The notes under the pieces are model-generated. The model was not told where the DNA came from, made no database searches, and worked only from the letters and a program-made list of their open reading frames with translations. From Enterobacteriaceae endosymbiont of Donacia fulgens (GTDB lineage Bacteria; Pseudomonadota; Gammaproteobacteria; Enterobacterales; Enterobacteriaceae): a DNA stretch of 64,000 nucleotides. The translations under genes and the position numbers were made by a program. Below, piece after piece: positions 8,103 through 19,302 of this stretch. The DNA lies in the NCBI RefSeq assembly GCF_012567545.1, contig NZ_CP046182.1, positions 188,324 to 252,323 of the forward strand. Direction: 5' to 3'. The stretch's first letter is position 1, and each line of letters opens with the position of its first letter.

Positions 8103-8885
8103 ATGAAAAAATTTTTAATTATTGCTAATTGGAAATTAAATGGTAACTTTTATTTTATAAATAAAAATATAAATTTAATTAAAAAAAAAATAGATAATTT
8201 ATTATCTTTTTGTGATCTATCTATAGCACCTCCTTACTTATATATAAGTTATATTAATAATTTTTTAAAAAATACATCTATATCTTTAACTGCACAAAAT
8301 GTTGATATACATACAGAAGGATCTTTTACTGGAGAAATATCAATTAATATGTTAAAAGATGTTGGAGTAAAATATGTAATAATTGGACATTCAGAAAGAA
8401 GATTATATCATAATGAAGATAATAATCTTATATCTAAAAAATTTATTTTAATTAAAAATAATGGATTAATTCCAATAATATGTTTAGGAGAAACAGAAAA
8501 ACAAAAAGAACAAAATCAAACAGAAAAAGTTTGTATTCAACAAATTAATAACATATTAGAAAATAGTAATATTAATATTTTAAATAAAACTATTATTGCT
8601 TATGAACCTATTTGGGCTATTGGATCAGGAAAAAGCGCAAATATTAATGAAATAGAAAAAATTATTTTATATATTAAAAAATATATAGCATCTTTAGATG
8701 CTAAAATAGCAGAAAATATTTATTTTTTATATGGTGGATCTGTTAATTATTCTAATTTAGATATTTTTTTGAAAAAAAAAATTATTAATGGTTTATTAGT
8801 AGGAAAAGCTTCTTTAACAACAGAAAATTTTATATCTTTAGTTAAAAAAGCTGAAAAAATAATAAATTCATTAAATAGGTCTTAA
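8103..8885 (+). CDS. tpiA: Triosephosphate isomerase
   Basis: Interconverts dihydroxyacetone phosphate and glyceraldehyde-3-phosphate in glycolysis. The 260 residues (E. coli 255) carry the full active site: K11 in NWKLNG, H96 in IIGHSERR, and E168 in AYEPIWAIGSG, followed by the phosphate loops YGGSVN and GLLVGKASL. It probably shares a transcript with fpr. Its last 15 bases overlap the end of lysS on the opposite strand, so there is no room for a terminator between these convergent genes. Confidence 0.97.
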   Translation: MKKFLIIANWKLNGNFYFINKNINLIKKKIDNLLSFCDLSIAPPYLYISYINNFLKNTSISLTAQNVDIHTEGSFTGEISINMLKDVGVKYVIIGHSERRLYHNEDNNLISKKFILIKNNGLIPIICLGETEKQKEQNQTEKVCIQQINNILENSNINILNKTIIAYEPIWAIGSGKSANINEIEKIILYIKKYIASLDAKIAENIYFLYGGSVNYSNLDIFLKKKIINGLLVGKASLTTENFISLVKKAEKIINSLNRS

Positions 8886-10391
8886 CATTGGAAATAAAAT
8901 TACATCTCTAATTGATTTTGTATCAGTAAATAACATTATTAATCTATCTATACCGATACCTAATCCTGCAGTAGGAGGTAAACCATGTTCTAATGCTTCT
9001 ATATAATCTTGATCATAAAAATTTTCATAAGTATTTTTATCATTATGTATATTTTTAATATTTTGTTGTTCTTTAAATCTTTTTTTTTGTTCTTCAGGAT
9101 CATTAAGTTCAGAAAAACCATTAGCTATTTCCATACCACAAATAAAAAATTCAAATCTATCGGTAAATGAAGGATTTAAATCATTATTTCTTGATAATGG
9201 AGAAATTTCAATAGGATATTCTGTAATAAATGTTGGTTCTATAATTTTATTTATAATTTTTTCTTCAAAAATTTCAAAAATAATTTTACCTTTACTCCAA
9301 TCTTGATTTATTTTAACATTTAATAAATTAGCAATTTTTATTAATTTTTTACTATCTTCTAAATTTTCTAAAGAAAAATTAGGATAAAAATATATAATAG
9401 ATTCTTTCATTGTTAATTTATTAAATTTTTTATTCAAATCAAAAATATAATTATTATATTTTAATAAATTATTTTTAAATATTATTTGATATATTTTTTT
9501 AAATAATTTTTCAAAAAAAATCATTAAATCTTTATAATTAGAATATGTTATATATAATTCCATCATAGTAAATTCAGGATTATGTTTTGTTGAAATTCCT
9601 TCATTTCTAAAATTTCTATTAATTTCAAAAATTTTATTCAAACCTCCAATTATGAGGCGTTTTAAATAAAGTTCAGGAGCAATACGTAAATAAATATTTT
9701 TGTTATAAGTATTATGATATGTTATAAATGGTCTAGCTAAAGCTCCTCCTGGAATATTATGCATCATAGGAGTTTCTACTTCTATAAAACCTTGTTTATT
9801 CATAAAATTACGAATATTTAATATAATTTGTGATCTTTTTTTAAAAATATAACGTGTTTTTTTATTAACAATTAAATCTAAATATCTTTTTCTATATTTT
9901 ATTTCTTTATCTTGTAATCCATGATATTTATCAGGTAATGGTCTAATTGCTTTTGTTAATAAATAAATTTTTTGACAAAAAATAGATAAAATGTTAGTTT
10001 TAGTTTTAAAAATATAACCAATAATACCTATTATATCTCCAAGATCATATTTTTTTAAAAAATTTTTATATATTTTTTGTGAAACTTTATTTTGAGATAT
10101 ATAAATTTGTATCTTTCCTGTATAATCTTGAATATTAATAAAAGAAGCTTTTCCCATAATTCTTAAATTTACTATACGTCCTGCAATATTAAATATTTTT
10201 TTTTCTGAAAAAATATTTTTATGATTATATTTTTTATATATTTCATGTAATGAAATACTAATTTTAAAATTATTAGGAAAAACTATATTATTATTTTTTC
10301 TTAATTCTGTTAATTTTTTATGCCTAAATTTTATTTCATTATTATCAATATTTTTTATATTATTATTAAATTTTTTTTTATTTTCAGACAT
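8871..10391 (-). CDS. lysS: Lysyl-tRNA synthetase, class II
   Basis: Charges tRNA-Lys with lysine. It has 506 residues (E. coli LysS 505). An N-terminal OB-fold anticodon domain (about 60-150, AGRIVNLRIMGKASFINIQD) precedes the class II core with motif 2 FRNEGISTKHNPEFTMMELY, then GMEIANGFSELNDP and motif 3 GLGIGIDRLIMLF. The gene follows prfB by 28 bases, reproducing the E. coli prfB-lysS operon. Its 3' end overlaps tpiA by 15 bases. No second lysine synthetase is visible in the window. Confidence 0.97.
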   Translation of the reverse strand: MSENKKKFNNNIKNIDNNEIKFRHKKLTELRKNNNIVFPNNFKISISLHEIYKKYNHKNIFSEKKIFNIAGRIVNLRIMGKASFINIQDYTGKIQIYISQNKVSQKIYKNFLKKYDLGDIIGIIGYIFKTKTNILSIFCQKIYLLTKAIRPLPDKYHGLQDKEIKYRKRYLDLIVNKKTRYIFKKRSQIILNIRNFMNKQGFIEVETPMMHNIPGGALARPFITYHNTYNKNIYLRIAPELYLKRLIIGGLNKIFEINRNFRNEGISTKHNPEFTMMELYITYSNYKDLMIFFEKLFKKIYQIIFKNNLLKYNNYIFDLNKKFNKLTMKESIIYFYPNFSLENLEDSKKLIKIANLLNVKINQDWSKGKIIFEIFEEKIINKIIEPTFITEYPIEISPLSRNNDLNPSFTDRFEFFICGMEIANGFSELNDPEEQKKRFKEQQNIKNIHNDKNTYENFYDQDYIEALEHGLPPTAGLGIGIDRLIMLFTDTKSIRDVILFPMLRPI

Positions 10392-10419: not shown

Positions 10420-11518
10420 TTATAAACCTAGTTTTAAACTAGCTTGAATAAATTTATCTAAATTACCATTAAGTATATACTGTACATCATTAGTTTCTAT
10501 ACCTGTTCTTATATCTTTAATTCTTGAATTATCTAGTATATAAGAACGTATTTGGTATCCCCAACTAATATTAAATTTTTTTTTTTCTATTTTTTTTTTT
10601 ATTTTTTTTTTTATATTATTTTGTAATTGATATAACTTAAATTTTATTTGTTTCATAGCTTGAATTTTATTTTGATGTTGTGATCTATTATTTTGACATT
10701 GTGTTACTATTCCAGTTGGAATATGTGTAATTCGTACAGCAGATTCTGTACGATTTACATGTTGTCCACCTGCTCCTGAAGATCGATACACATCAATACG
10801 TAAATCTTCTGAATTAATAGATATATTAATATTATCTTTAATTTCTGGATATATAAAAGTTGAAGCAAAAGATGTATGCCTTCTCCCAGATGAACTAAAA
10901 GGACTTTTTCTAACTAAACGATGAATACCATTTTCTGTACGTAACCATCCAAAAGCATAATCACCTATAATATGTAATGTAGATGATTTTATACCTATAA
11001 CTTCTCCTGGAGATTCACTTATTATTTTTACTTGAAAATTTTTTTTTTCTGCCCATTTTAAATACATTTTCATTATTATTTTTGCCCAATCTTGAGATTC
11101 TATCCCCCCTGATCCAGATTGGATATCCATAAAACAATTTCTTTTATCATTTTTTTGAATAAAGATTTTTTTAAATTCTAAATTATTTATTTTATTTTGA
11201 ATATTAAATAATATTTTTATTGATTCTTTTAATATTTTGTGATCATTAGTATTAATTGCTAAATTAATTAATTCATTAATATCAATAATTTCTTGATTAA
11301 TATTATCTAAACTTGATATTAAATTTTTAATATGTGTTTTTCTTTTATTTAAAGAACATAAATAATCAAAATTATTCCAAATATTAGGATTTTTAAGTTG
11401 ATTTTTTATTATTAATAATTTTTTTTTATATTTTGAATAATTAAAGAAACCCCCTAATAAAAATATTCCTTTTTTTTATTTTTTTTAATTTATTTTTTAT
11501 TAAATAAATTTCTAACAT
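10420..11518 (-). CDS. prfB: Peptide chain release factor 2, with programmed +1 frameshift
   Basis: RF2 ends translation at UAA and UGA. Two frames must be joined. Frame one starts with ATG at 11518-11516 after AGGAGA and gives 25 codons, ending in ...RGFL and a TAA (11443-11441). Skipping the first T of that stop opens the second frame (NYSKYKKK...), which runs to 10420 and gives 365 residues in total, exactly the E. coli length. The decoding tripeptide SPF falls at 205-207, the catalytic GGQ at 250-252, and residue 246 is serine. The slip site is AGG GGG TTT CTT followed by TAA, where the known site has TGA. The join at one predictable codon and the conserved residues on both sides show this is not a broken gene. 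lysS follows. Confidence 0.94.
11441..11455 (-). promoter_or_regulatory. RF2 programmed +1 frameshift site with UAA in place of UGA
   Basis: Minus-strand sequence AGG GGG TTT CTT TAA. The internal Shine-Dalgarno-like AGGGGG and the slippery CTT have the arrangement known from E. coli prfB (AGG GGG TAT CTT TGA), but the stop is UAA. In the known circuit, low RF2 slows termination at UGA and favours the slip. UAA is also read by RF1, so the sensor should no longer report RF2 alone. Confidence 0.9.
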
Positions 11519-11521
11519 ATT

Positions 11522-11527
11522 TCTCCT
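11522..11527 (-). promoter_or_regulatory. Ribosome-binding site that fixes the prfB start
   Basis: AGGAGA on the minus strand lies a few bases before the ATG at 11518-11516. It supports the upstream start and therefore the need for the frameshift, against an independent start at the internal ATG 11130. Confidence 0.7.
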
Positions 11528-11659
11528 AATTTTTTAATTGAAATAAATTTTCAATTAAATTTAATATAGAAAATTAATTTTAATTATTTTATTTATATTA
11601 AAATTAATATATTTAAAATTGATAGAAGTTTAAATAAATTATTATATTAATAAAAAAAA

Positions 11660-11732
11660 TGGCCCTTGTTGGATTTGAACCAACGACCTAACGATTATGA
11701 GTCGTTTGCTCTAACCACTGAGCTAAAGGGCC
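11660..11732 (-). tRNA. ileX: tRNA-Ile2 (CAU anticodon, lysidine-modified type)
   Basis: A 73-base cloverleaf: acceptor GGCCCTT/AAGGGCC with discriminator A, D arm AGCTCAGTGGTTAGAGC, anticodon stem AACGA/TCGTT around CTCATAA, and T arm GTTGGTTCAAATCCAAC. CAT anticodons occur in initiator, elongator Met and Ile2 tRNAs. The GGCCC acceptor and the GACTCATAATCG arm match the enterobacterial AUA-reading tRNA-Ile2 and not elongator Met (GGCTACG). TilS, which converts C34 to lysidine, is encoded at 44435-45757. The 3' CCA is not encoded. Confidence 0.88.
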
Positions 11733-11745
11733 ATTAATATTATAT

Positions 11746-18266: not shown

Positions 18267-18296
18267 TATATAAAATATTTTTATATTAAAATTTAT

Positions 18297-18343
18297 TTAA
18301 TATTTTATTATAAATAAATATTAAATTTATAATAAAATATTAA
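18297..18343 (+). terminator. Long A/T hairpin after corA
   Basis: A perfect 19-bp inverted repeat (18297-18315 with 18325-18343, loop 9) begins 30 bases after the corA stop. All pairs are A-T. No long T-run follows, so it may instead be an mRNA 3'-end stabiliser. Confidence 0.45.
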
Positions 18344-18400
18344 TTTAAGATAAATAAAACATAAAAAATTTATTTAGTATTTAAAAAAAAATAAAAAAAT

Positions 18401-18425
18401 GATGAATTAGTTTAAATAATTCACC
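18401..18425 (-). terminator. Hairpin with T-run, best formed on the minus strand
   Basis: The minus strand reads GGTGAATTA, 7-base loop, TAATTCATC, then ATTTTTTTATTTTTTTTT. The stem has 9 pairs including one G-U. The plus strand has an A-C mismatch at that pair but also runs into T-rich sequence. No present gene on the minus strand ends here. In the E. coli layout gltA would have ended on this side, so it may be a relic of the gltA terminator (inference). Confidence 0.35.
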
Positions 18426-18733
18426 TATTTATTTTTTTTTAAATATTAAAAAAATATAATTTTAATTTATATTTATATATTGTTATAAACAATAATTATT
18501 AAAATTATTAAGTTATTAACTTAATAAAAAATATTATATACATAAAATATATTAAAAAAATAATAAAAAAATAAGATATTAATATTAATTATATTAATTA
18601 AAATATAAATTCTATCTAAAAATATAATTTTATAAAATATTACTAATAATTTTAGTAAAATTATTTTATAATTTTCACATTTTAATATTAAAATAATTAA
18701 TTTTATATATATAAAGAGAGAAAAATTTATTTT

Positions 18734-18761
18734 TTTACATGATAATAATATAGAATATATT
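18734..18761 (+). promoter_or_regulatory. Promoter-like pair in the gene-free tract upstream of sucA
   Basis: TTTACA (18734-18739), a 16-base spacer and TATATT (18756-18761), each one base from consensus. It lies 540 bases before sucA, ahead of the dyads at 18802-18827. In such AT-rich DNA -10-like hexamers are frequent, so support is limited. Confidence 0.25.
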
Positions 18762-18801
18762 TTATGAAAAAATTTATTATATTTTCAATATTTATTAAAA
18801 A

Positions 18802-18827
18802 TAATGAATATCATTAACATGGTTAAT
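18802..18827. promoter_or_regulatory. Two overlapping dyads, operator-like
   Basis: TAATGA-ATA-TCATTA (18802-18816) and ATTAAC-ATG-GTTAAT (18813-18827) are two perfect 6-bp inverted repeats, each with a 3-base spacer, overlapping by four bases. The 19 bases 18800-18818 agree with the classical 19-bp Fur box consensus at 15 positions by hand count. Whether any regulator remains in this genome is unknown. Confidence 0.3.
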
Positions 18828-19302
18828 TTCATCAAAATTATATTAATTTTTATTTAATAAATTAATAATTAAAATTAAATTTTAATAAAATATTTAATTA
18901 TAATAAAATTTTAAATTTTATACATAAAAACTACTGATATTTAAAATAAATAATCTAAAAAAAAATTATTCATTTTACTATATTAATTATTTTTATTTAA
19001 AATATTAATTATTATATTATTATATTTAAAATTTTAAATTATTTTTTTATTTATTATTATTTAATAATATCAATTTTTTATTATTAAATTAAAATTATAT
19101 TTTTTATAATTTTATAAAATTTTAATAAAAAATATATTTTTTTAAAAATATTTTTTAATTAAAATAAATAATTATTTTTTAAAATTTTTTTTTAAAAAAA
19201 ATGATTATTTTGTAAAAATACATTTATAATTATGTTTTAAATATATTTTTTTACTAATACTAAAATATAATAAATATTATTTTATTGAAATAAGAGATTA
19301 TA

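Follow-up and report, generated by a model that had tools for sequence, protein, structure and literature searches.

The prfB locus of the Donacia fulgens symbiont

The stretch of DNA analysed here (the window) comprises 64,000 nucleotides from the endosymbiont of the reed beetle Donacia fulgens, whose genome of 465,858 bases is assembled in two contigs; a chromosome of 460,881 and a plasmid of 4,977 bases have been reported for it (Table 1 of Reis et al. 2020, PMC7289800). On its minus strand, the window carries a prfB gene for release factor 2 (RF2) that is split over two reading frames: a short ORF1 of 25 amino acids (MLEIYLIKNKLKKIKKRNIFIRGFL) is followed by RF2 in the +1 frame, and this second frame of 340 amino acids matches the RF2 model TIGR00020 with 439.8 bits against a cut-off of 370. 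The joined product has 365 residues, the same length as the database protein P0002. At the junction, the letters AGG GGG TTT CTT TAA T are read directly on the minus strand from 11455 to 11440, preceded by an ATT codon, and the Shine-Dalgarno (SD)-like AGGGGG lies three bases 5' of CTTT, the arrangement that marks a prfB frameshift motif. The in-frame stop is UAA and not the UGA of the classical circuit, and the base behind it is T instead of the classical C; T stands at this position in each of the 21 slip sites that are readable among the reed-beetle symbionts, those of the UGA type included. These readings bear out the original prediction of an RF2 frameshift site with RF2 matches in both flanking frames, a joined length of 365 and UAA in place of UGA. 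The site shares with prfB of the E. coli type (AGGGGG UAU CUU UGA C) the 25-codon ORF1, the AGGGGG element, the spacer of three bases, CUUU, RF2 in the +1 frame and the joined length of 365 amino acids, whereas the UAA stop, the UUU spacer and the U after the stop set it apart.

Features of the prfB region in the window (positions counted from the first letter of the window)
Feature	Position	Strand	Basis
AGGAG, likely Shine-Dalgarno sequence of prfB ORF1	11523..11527	-	letters read; precedes ATG at 11518
prfB ORF1, 25 codons + UAA	11441..11518	-	ORF reading
First 8-A run in prfB ORF1, possible transcript-slippage site	11479..11486	-	
Second 8-A run in prfB ORF1, possible transcript-slippage site	11470..11477	-	
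AGGGGG, internal Shine-Dalgarno-like stimulator	11450..11455	-	letters, conservation, predicted duplex
TTT spacer codon of the prfB slip site	11447..11449	-	
CTT codon, where tRNA-Leu(GAG) would slip to TTT	11444..11446	-	
TAA stop in frame (Plateumaris symbionts and most relatives: TGA), followed by T	11441..11443	-	
prfB ORF2 = RF2, +1 frame, 340 codons + stop	10420..11442	-	TIGR00020 match
lysS, downstream neighbour of prfB	8871..10391	-	
tRNA-Met gene, upstream neighbour of prfB	11659..11733	-	

Elsewhere in the window, the gap between corA and sucA (18267-19302) extends over about 1 kb without an ORF of at least 110 codons and falls within the 4 kb of the window with the highest AT content.

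The slip-site stop codon in reed-beetle symbionts and in the wider order

We compared 24 genomes of reed-beetle symbionts, 16 from Donacia, one from Neohaemonia, five from Plateumaris and two from Macroplea. One of the Donacia genomes has N at the slip site and was excluded from the counts, which leaves 15 readable ones. UAA is present in all 15 as well as in the Neohaemonia symbiont, and the stop observed in the D. fulgens symbiont is therefore shared by 14 further Donacia genomes; the question raised with the original prediction, whether UAA is fixed among related symbionts, can be answered in the affirmative for the readable genomes from these two host genera. An error of sequencing or assembly at a single base is a negligible explanation for the unusual stop, as Neohaemonia and all 15 readable Donacia genomes have these letters in common. 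All five Plateumaris symbionts have UGA, and in both Macroplea symbionts the slip site is gone: here, CGT AGT ATT TTT AAT TAT is part of a single reading frame. This is the same state as in the frameshift-less prfB genes with 1-base deletions described by Lim et al. (2026, PMC13245932), whereas the D. fulgens gene still needs a change of frame. After the slip, RF2 continues with GAT (Asp) in the UGA genomes and with AAT (Asn) in the UAA genomes. Macroplea prfB carries AAT at this position, and this fits the expectation for an ancestor with UAAU; a later Asp-to-Asn change is the alternative.

In the wider order, 394 evenly drawn genomes, with that of D. fulgens as the sole member of the reed-beetle symbiont group, were surveyed for the pattern GGGG-NNN-CTTTAA, or its TGA version, plus a downstream GxGG motif. 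The TGA version matched 355 genomes and the UAA pattern a single one, the D. fulgens symbiont itself. Inspection of the prfB start in the remaining 38 genomes added four UGA sites (three with CGGAGG, one overlooked by the pattern), one UAA site and 27 single-frame genes that have ATG in the same frame 25 codons upstream, and six genomes were left outside these classes. In total, UAA was found in two and UGA in 359 of the genomes (388 resolved, 394 sampled). The second UAA site (G176, L198) reads AGGAGG TAT CTT TAA C and has a 25-codon ORF1; it belongs to a 1.2-Mb genome of the same family as the D. fulgens symbiont. The frameshift-less prfB of G103 (L197) still contains CGG GGG TAT CTT GAC, which looks like the slip site after deletion of a single T from CTTT.

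As to the order of events, our complete tree of ten proteins places Macroplea as sister to Neohaemonia (support 100) and lets Plateumaris branch first (support 83), a root that was recovered neither by the IQ-TREE tree without prfB, from an interrupted run, nor by FastTree without prfB (0.78). Host mitochondrial trees have Plateumaris as sister to the rest and Haemoniini as sister to Donacia, and the symbiont tree has been reported to be almost congruent with that of the hosts (Reis et al. 2020, PMC7289800). Given this position of Plateumaris and the near-congruence, a single change from UGA to UAA, on the stem of the Donacia and Haemoniini symbionts, would be the simplest history; since our own trees disagree on the root, two changes to UAA, or one together with a reversal in Plateumaris, are possible as well. 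The best reading of the distribution is that UAA would be old and stable across the Donacia symbionts. The idea that the UAA site is an intermediate on the way to loss of the circuit finds a mixed answer in these data: Macroplea, sister of a UAA lineage and with its AAT codon, speaks for it, whereas the stability of UAA throughout Donacia speaks against it.

Conservation of the cassette and of the termination machinery

The codons of the slip site are well conserved in the Donacia symbionts, with AGG in 15/15, GGG in 14/15 (the exception being AGGAGG) and CTT in 15/15 genomes. Sites with invariant amino acids in 12 Donacia-symbiont genes at which D. fulgens has GGG, AGG or CTT served as the control. 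There, none of the 10 GGG sites, none of the 6 AGG sites and one of the 15 CTT sites had the codon in every aligned genome, with a mean retention of 7.9%, 0% and 71%, respectively; AGG and GGG differ strongly from their counterparts in the slip site and CTT modestly, with small control samples throughout. Since the internal SD is conserved even though AGG and GGG are rarely kept elsewhere, ribosomal frameshifting is probably still under selection in these bacteria. The SD duplex, calculated per hexamer type against an E. coli-like anti-SD piece, is predicted at -10.5 kcal/mol in 15 UAA genomes and at -11.4 in one, and for the UGA genomes the values are -11.4 (two genomes), -6.8 (one) and -4.2 (two). 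The strong internal SD is thus retained in 16/16 UAA genomes, and we infer, from what are very few lineages, that the UAA site requires it.

There is no ATG, GTG or TTG in the RF2 frame 5' of the slip site in any of the 15 readable Donacia genomes, in agreement with the earlier claim that the frame change is still required to make RF2; an upstream start in the RF2 frame at one of these three codons is excluded for Plateumaris as well. The Neohaemonia gene (L026) has the UAA cassette intact, its RF2 frame is open for 30 codons upstream and contains two TTG codons, and the database entry for this RF2 (P0024) starts in the upstream TTG region. RF2 might be started there without frameshifting, and the upstream TTG codons may mark a stage on the route to the Macroplea state.

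RF2 could also be produced mainly by slippage of RNA polymerase at the A runs of ORF1: one A fewer or two extra would put translation in the RF2 frame ahead of the UAA, and the identity of the stop would be irrelevant. Runs of 8 to 12 A are present in 13 of the 16 UAA genomes, with the RF2 frame open through them, and the AT-rich D. fulgens symbiont with its long A runs near the gene start resembles Blochmannia and Buchnera, for which such a poly(A) rescue has been described (PMC3017870). The rescue reported for those symbionts differs from the case studied here, where a ribosomal frameshift cassette is conserved and the A runs are not: in three of the 16 UAA genomes, the longest run has only 7 (D. 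cinerea), 6 (D. vulgaris) or 5 A (N. nigricornis), and the same cassette is kept. Moreover, polymerase slippage would need neither SD nor CTT, yet both are conserved, and the runs do not track UAA, as P. consimilis with its UGA also has a 12-A run. We judge this route very unlikely to be the main source of RF2.

Concerning the translation machinery, tRNA-Leu(GAG), the tRNA that a prfB frameshift motif calls for, is encoded in 24/24 genomes, Macroplea included, which rules out a joint loss of this tRNA and the frameshift; it is among the 30 tRNA matches in the D. fulgens symbiont, whose 16S rRNA retains the anti-SD CCTCC (CCUCC). RF1 and RF2 have matches in all 24 genomes. For RF3, nothing exceeded the model cut-off in any of the 24 genomes, and the best matches below it were frames of 704-713 codons, the size that we would expect of EF-G. 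At what we take to be residue 246, four positions ahead of GGQ, the RF2 proteins of the group carry Ser or Ala instead of Thr.

The suggestion that RF2 may be on the way to dispensability finds no support. Among 163 ORFs sampled from the D. fulgens symbiont (120 codons or longer), four end in UGA (hisB, tatD, rplD and thrB); the same stop closes the presumed rplD, thrB and hisB ORFs in 7/7 sampled Donacia genomes, with the assignment in the other genomes based on equal ORF length and place. The UGA of rplD and thrB (L152, L154 and their counterparts) overlaps the next ORF start as ATGA in all seven genomes; because of this stop-start overlap, it cannot turn into UAA without breaking the next ATG, and the overlaps may keep UGA termination in use. 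Since UGA still ends these three ORFs in all seven genomes, RF2 does not look dispensable in the Donacia symbionts; PrmC, too, was found above the cut-off in all 24 genomes of the group. The SPF motif of RF2 is the tripeptide that reads the stop codon. It is replaced by NPF in D. proxima (L011), D. sparganii (L014), D. piscatrix (L016) and D. provostii (L018), all of the UAA type, and is present in the other 20 genomes of the group and in six outgroups. A loss of UGA decoding in the NPF genomes was rejected: the three of the four that were sampled all have UGA at the rplD, thrB and hisB ORFs.

In the first ORF sample, UGA accounted for 8 of 271 stops in the D. fulgens and N. nigricornis symbionts, 15 of 195 in Plateumaris and 26 of 198 in Macroplea, which pointed to the lowest UGA use in UAA-type lineages; the Fisher values for this sample ignore kinship and were given no weight. 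The share of UGA among the stops is 2.5% to 8.1% in seven Donacia genomes, 7.3% and 8.1% in Plateumaris and 12.0% and 14.4% in Macroplea, and UAA ends 86-95% of the sampled ORFs in the Donacia and Neohaemonia symbionts. Low UGA usage was rejected as the driver of the UAA site because the Donacia range overlaps that of Plateumaris and only Macroplea stands apart. Lim et al. (2026, PMC13245932) likewise report no significant link to UGA usage after correction for kinship.

Predicted feedback at a UAA stop

We consider it likely that prfB of these symbionts is controlled by a working programmed +1 frameshift in which UAA has replaced UGA as the stop, with a single replacement on the stem of the Donacia and Haemoniini symbionts as the simplest case, and has been stable since; slippage, sensor behaviour and the order of events are read here from the site, its distribution and conservation, and the gene content. 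Ribosomes would read ORF1, AGGGGG would pair with the 16S rRNA, and tRNA-Leu(GAG) on CUU would slip to UUU, with reading continued into RF2. UAA is read by both RF1 and RF2, UGA by RF2 alone. Because RF1 reads UAA as well, the shift would compete with the combined activity of the two factors; a sensor of RF1 plus RF2, as originally proposed, would thus follow from which factors read UAA, and the RF2-specific feedback has probably become weaker without disappearing. In the Macroplea lineage, the slip site would later have been lost, leaving RF2 in a single frame.

An SD that remained strong, the absence of RF3 and the prevalence of UAA among the stops of these genomes may have made the change to UAA tolerable. 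When E. coli lost RF3, frameshifting at prfB went up from about 28% to 47% in the presence of the K-12 RF2, and from 21% to about 28% where a more active RF2 variant was present (PMC5373646). The small effect with active RF2 speaks against the RF3 part of this argument, as the RF2 proteins of the group are of the Ser/Ala and not of the Thr type. Slipping does not demand UGA, since CUU shift-site variants before UAG as well as UGA gave consistent values (review, PMC5009743). Nor is the U after the stop a bar by itself: in Pseudomonas fluorescens, a C-to-U change at this position did not impair growth, and mutation of the SD reduced RF2 and fitness (PMC13245932).

If UAA were read mostly by RF2 in these bacteria, it would serve like UGA and ordinary RF2 autoregulation would be intact. 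Prince et al. (2025, PMC12421855) argue that RF2 can still regulate at UAA sites, and Ser or Ala before GGQ is also what active RF2 has. We regard this as quite unlikely: RF1, a UAA reader, is present in 24/24 genomes, and the two codons are not equivalent in evolution, given that UGA occupies the site not only in 359 of our 388 resolved genomes (394 sampled) but also in 98.6% of 8,164 genomes, with UAA in 1.4% (Prince et al. 2025, PMC12421855). With the latter value already in print, the site in the D. fulgens symbiont is real but less odd than originally held; UAA at the prfB slip site is published as rare, and its fixation throughout a clade is the new part. The frameshift might also be a relic that senses nothing and merely cuts RF2 output by a fixed factor. 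Its loss in Macroplea is in line with this, as is the finding that P. fluorescens showed no detectable change in fitness once the internal stop was removed (PMC13245932). The strong SD kept in 16/16 UAA genomes argues for more than a relic, but the SD would also be preserved if selection demanded enough RF2; we think a relic unlikely.

It is a tentative possibility that the prfB loop of the Donacia and Neohaemonia symbionts is a stable sensor of total (RF1 plus RF2) termination capacity at UAA. If so, the site would represent a lasting new set-point and not decay, held throughout the radiation of the hosts by selection on the strong internal SD, and Macroplea would be one exit from this set-point.

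The retention or loss of prfB autoregulation in bacteria is under debate (Prince et al. 2025; Lim et al. 2026). The D. fulgens site resembles the scattered UAA-type sites of Prince et al. (2025, PMC12421855) in having CTTTAA with the rest of the cassette, and differs from them in that UAA is common to a whole clade of 16 readable genomes whose sisters have UGA or have lost the site, which qualifies the published statement that UAA is not broadly fixed in clades. With prfB of the UGA type, of the UAA type and without a frameshift, the reed-beetle symbionts offer a natural series for the change and loss of a feedback loop. They follow the host phylogeny and are reported to be perfectly syntenic (Reis et al. 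2020, PMC7289800), and such a group allows direct tests of how the loop is lost and of what the identity of the stop means. We found no paper on programmed prfB frameshifting in endosymbionts or on release factors of reed-beetle symbionts in a search that scarcely covered the subscription literature, and a word search of the reed-beetle transcriptome paper PMC12508126 returned neither prfB nor frameshift.

Some minor observations concern gene content in the group. PF00295 has a match in 10 of the 24 genomes, that of D. fulgens not among them, and the two 20-kb stretches from Macroplea (L054, L055) are both without an ilvE match. In the P. sericea genome (G015), lon aligns as two pieces inside one frame of 816 codons.
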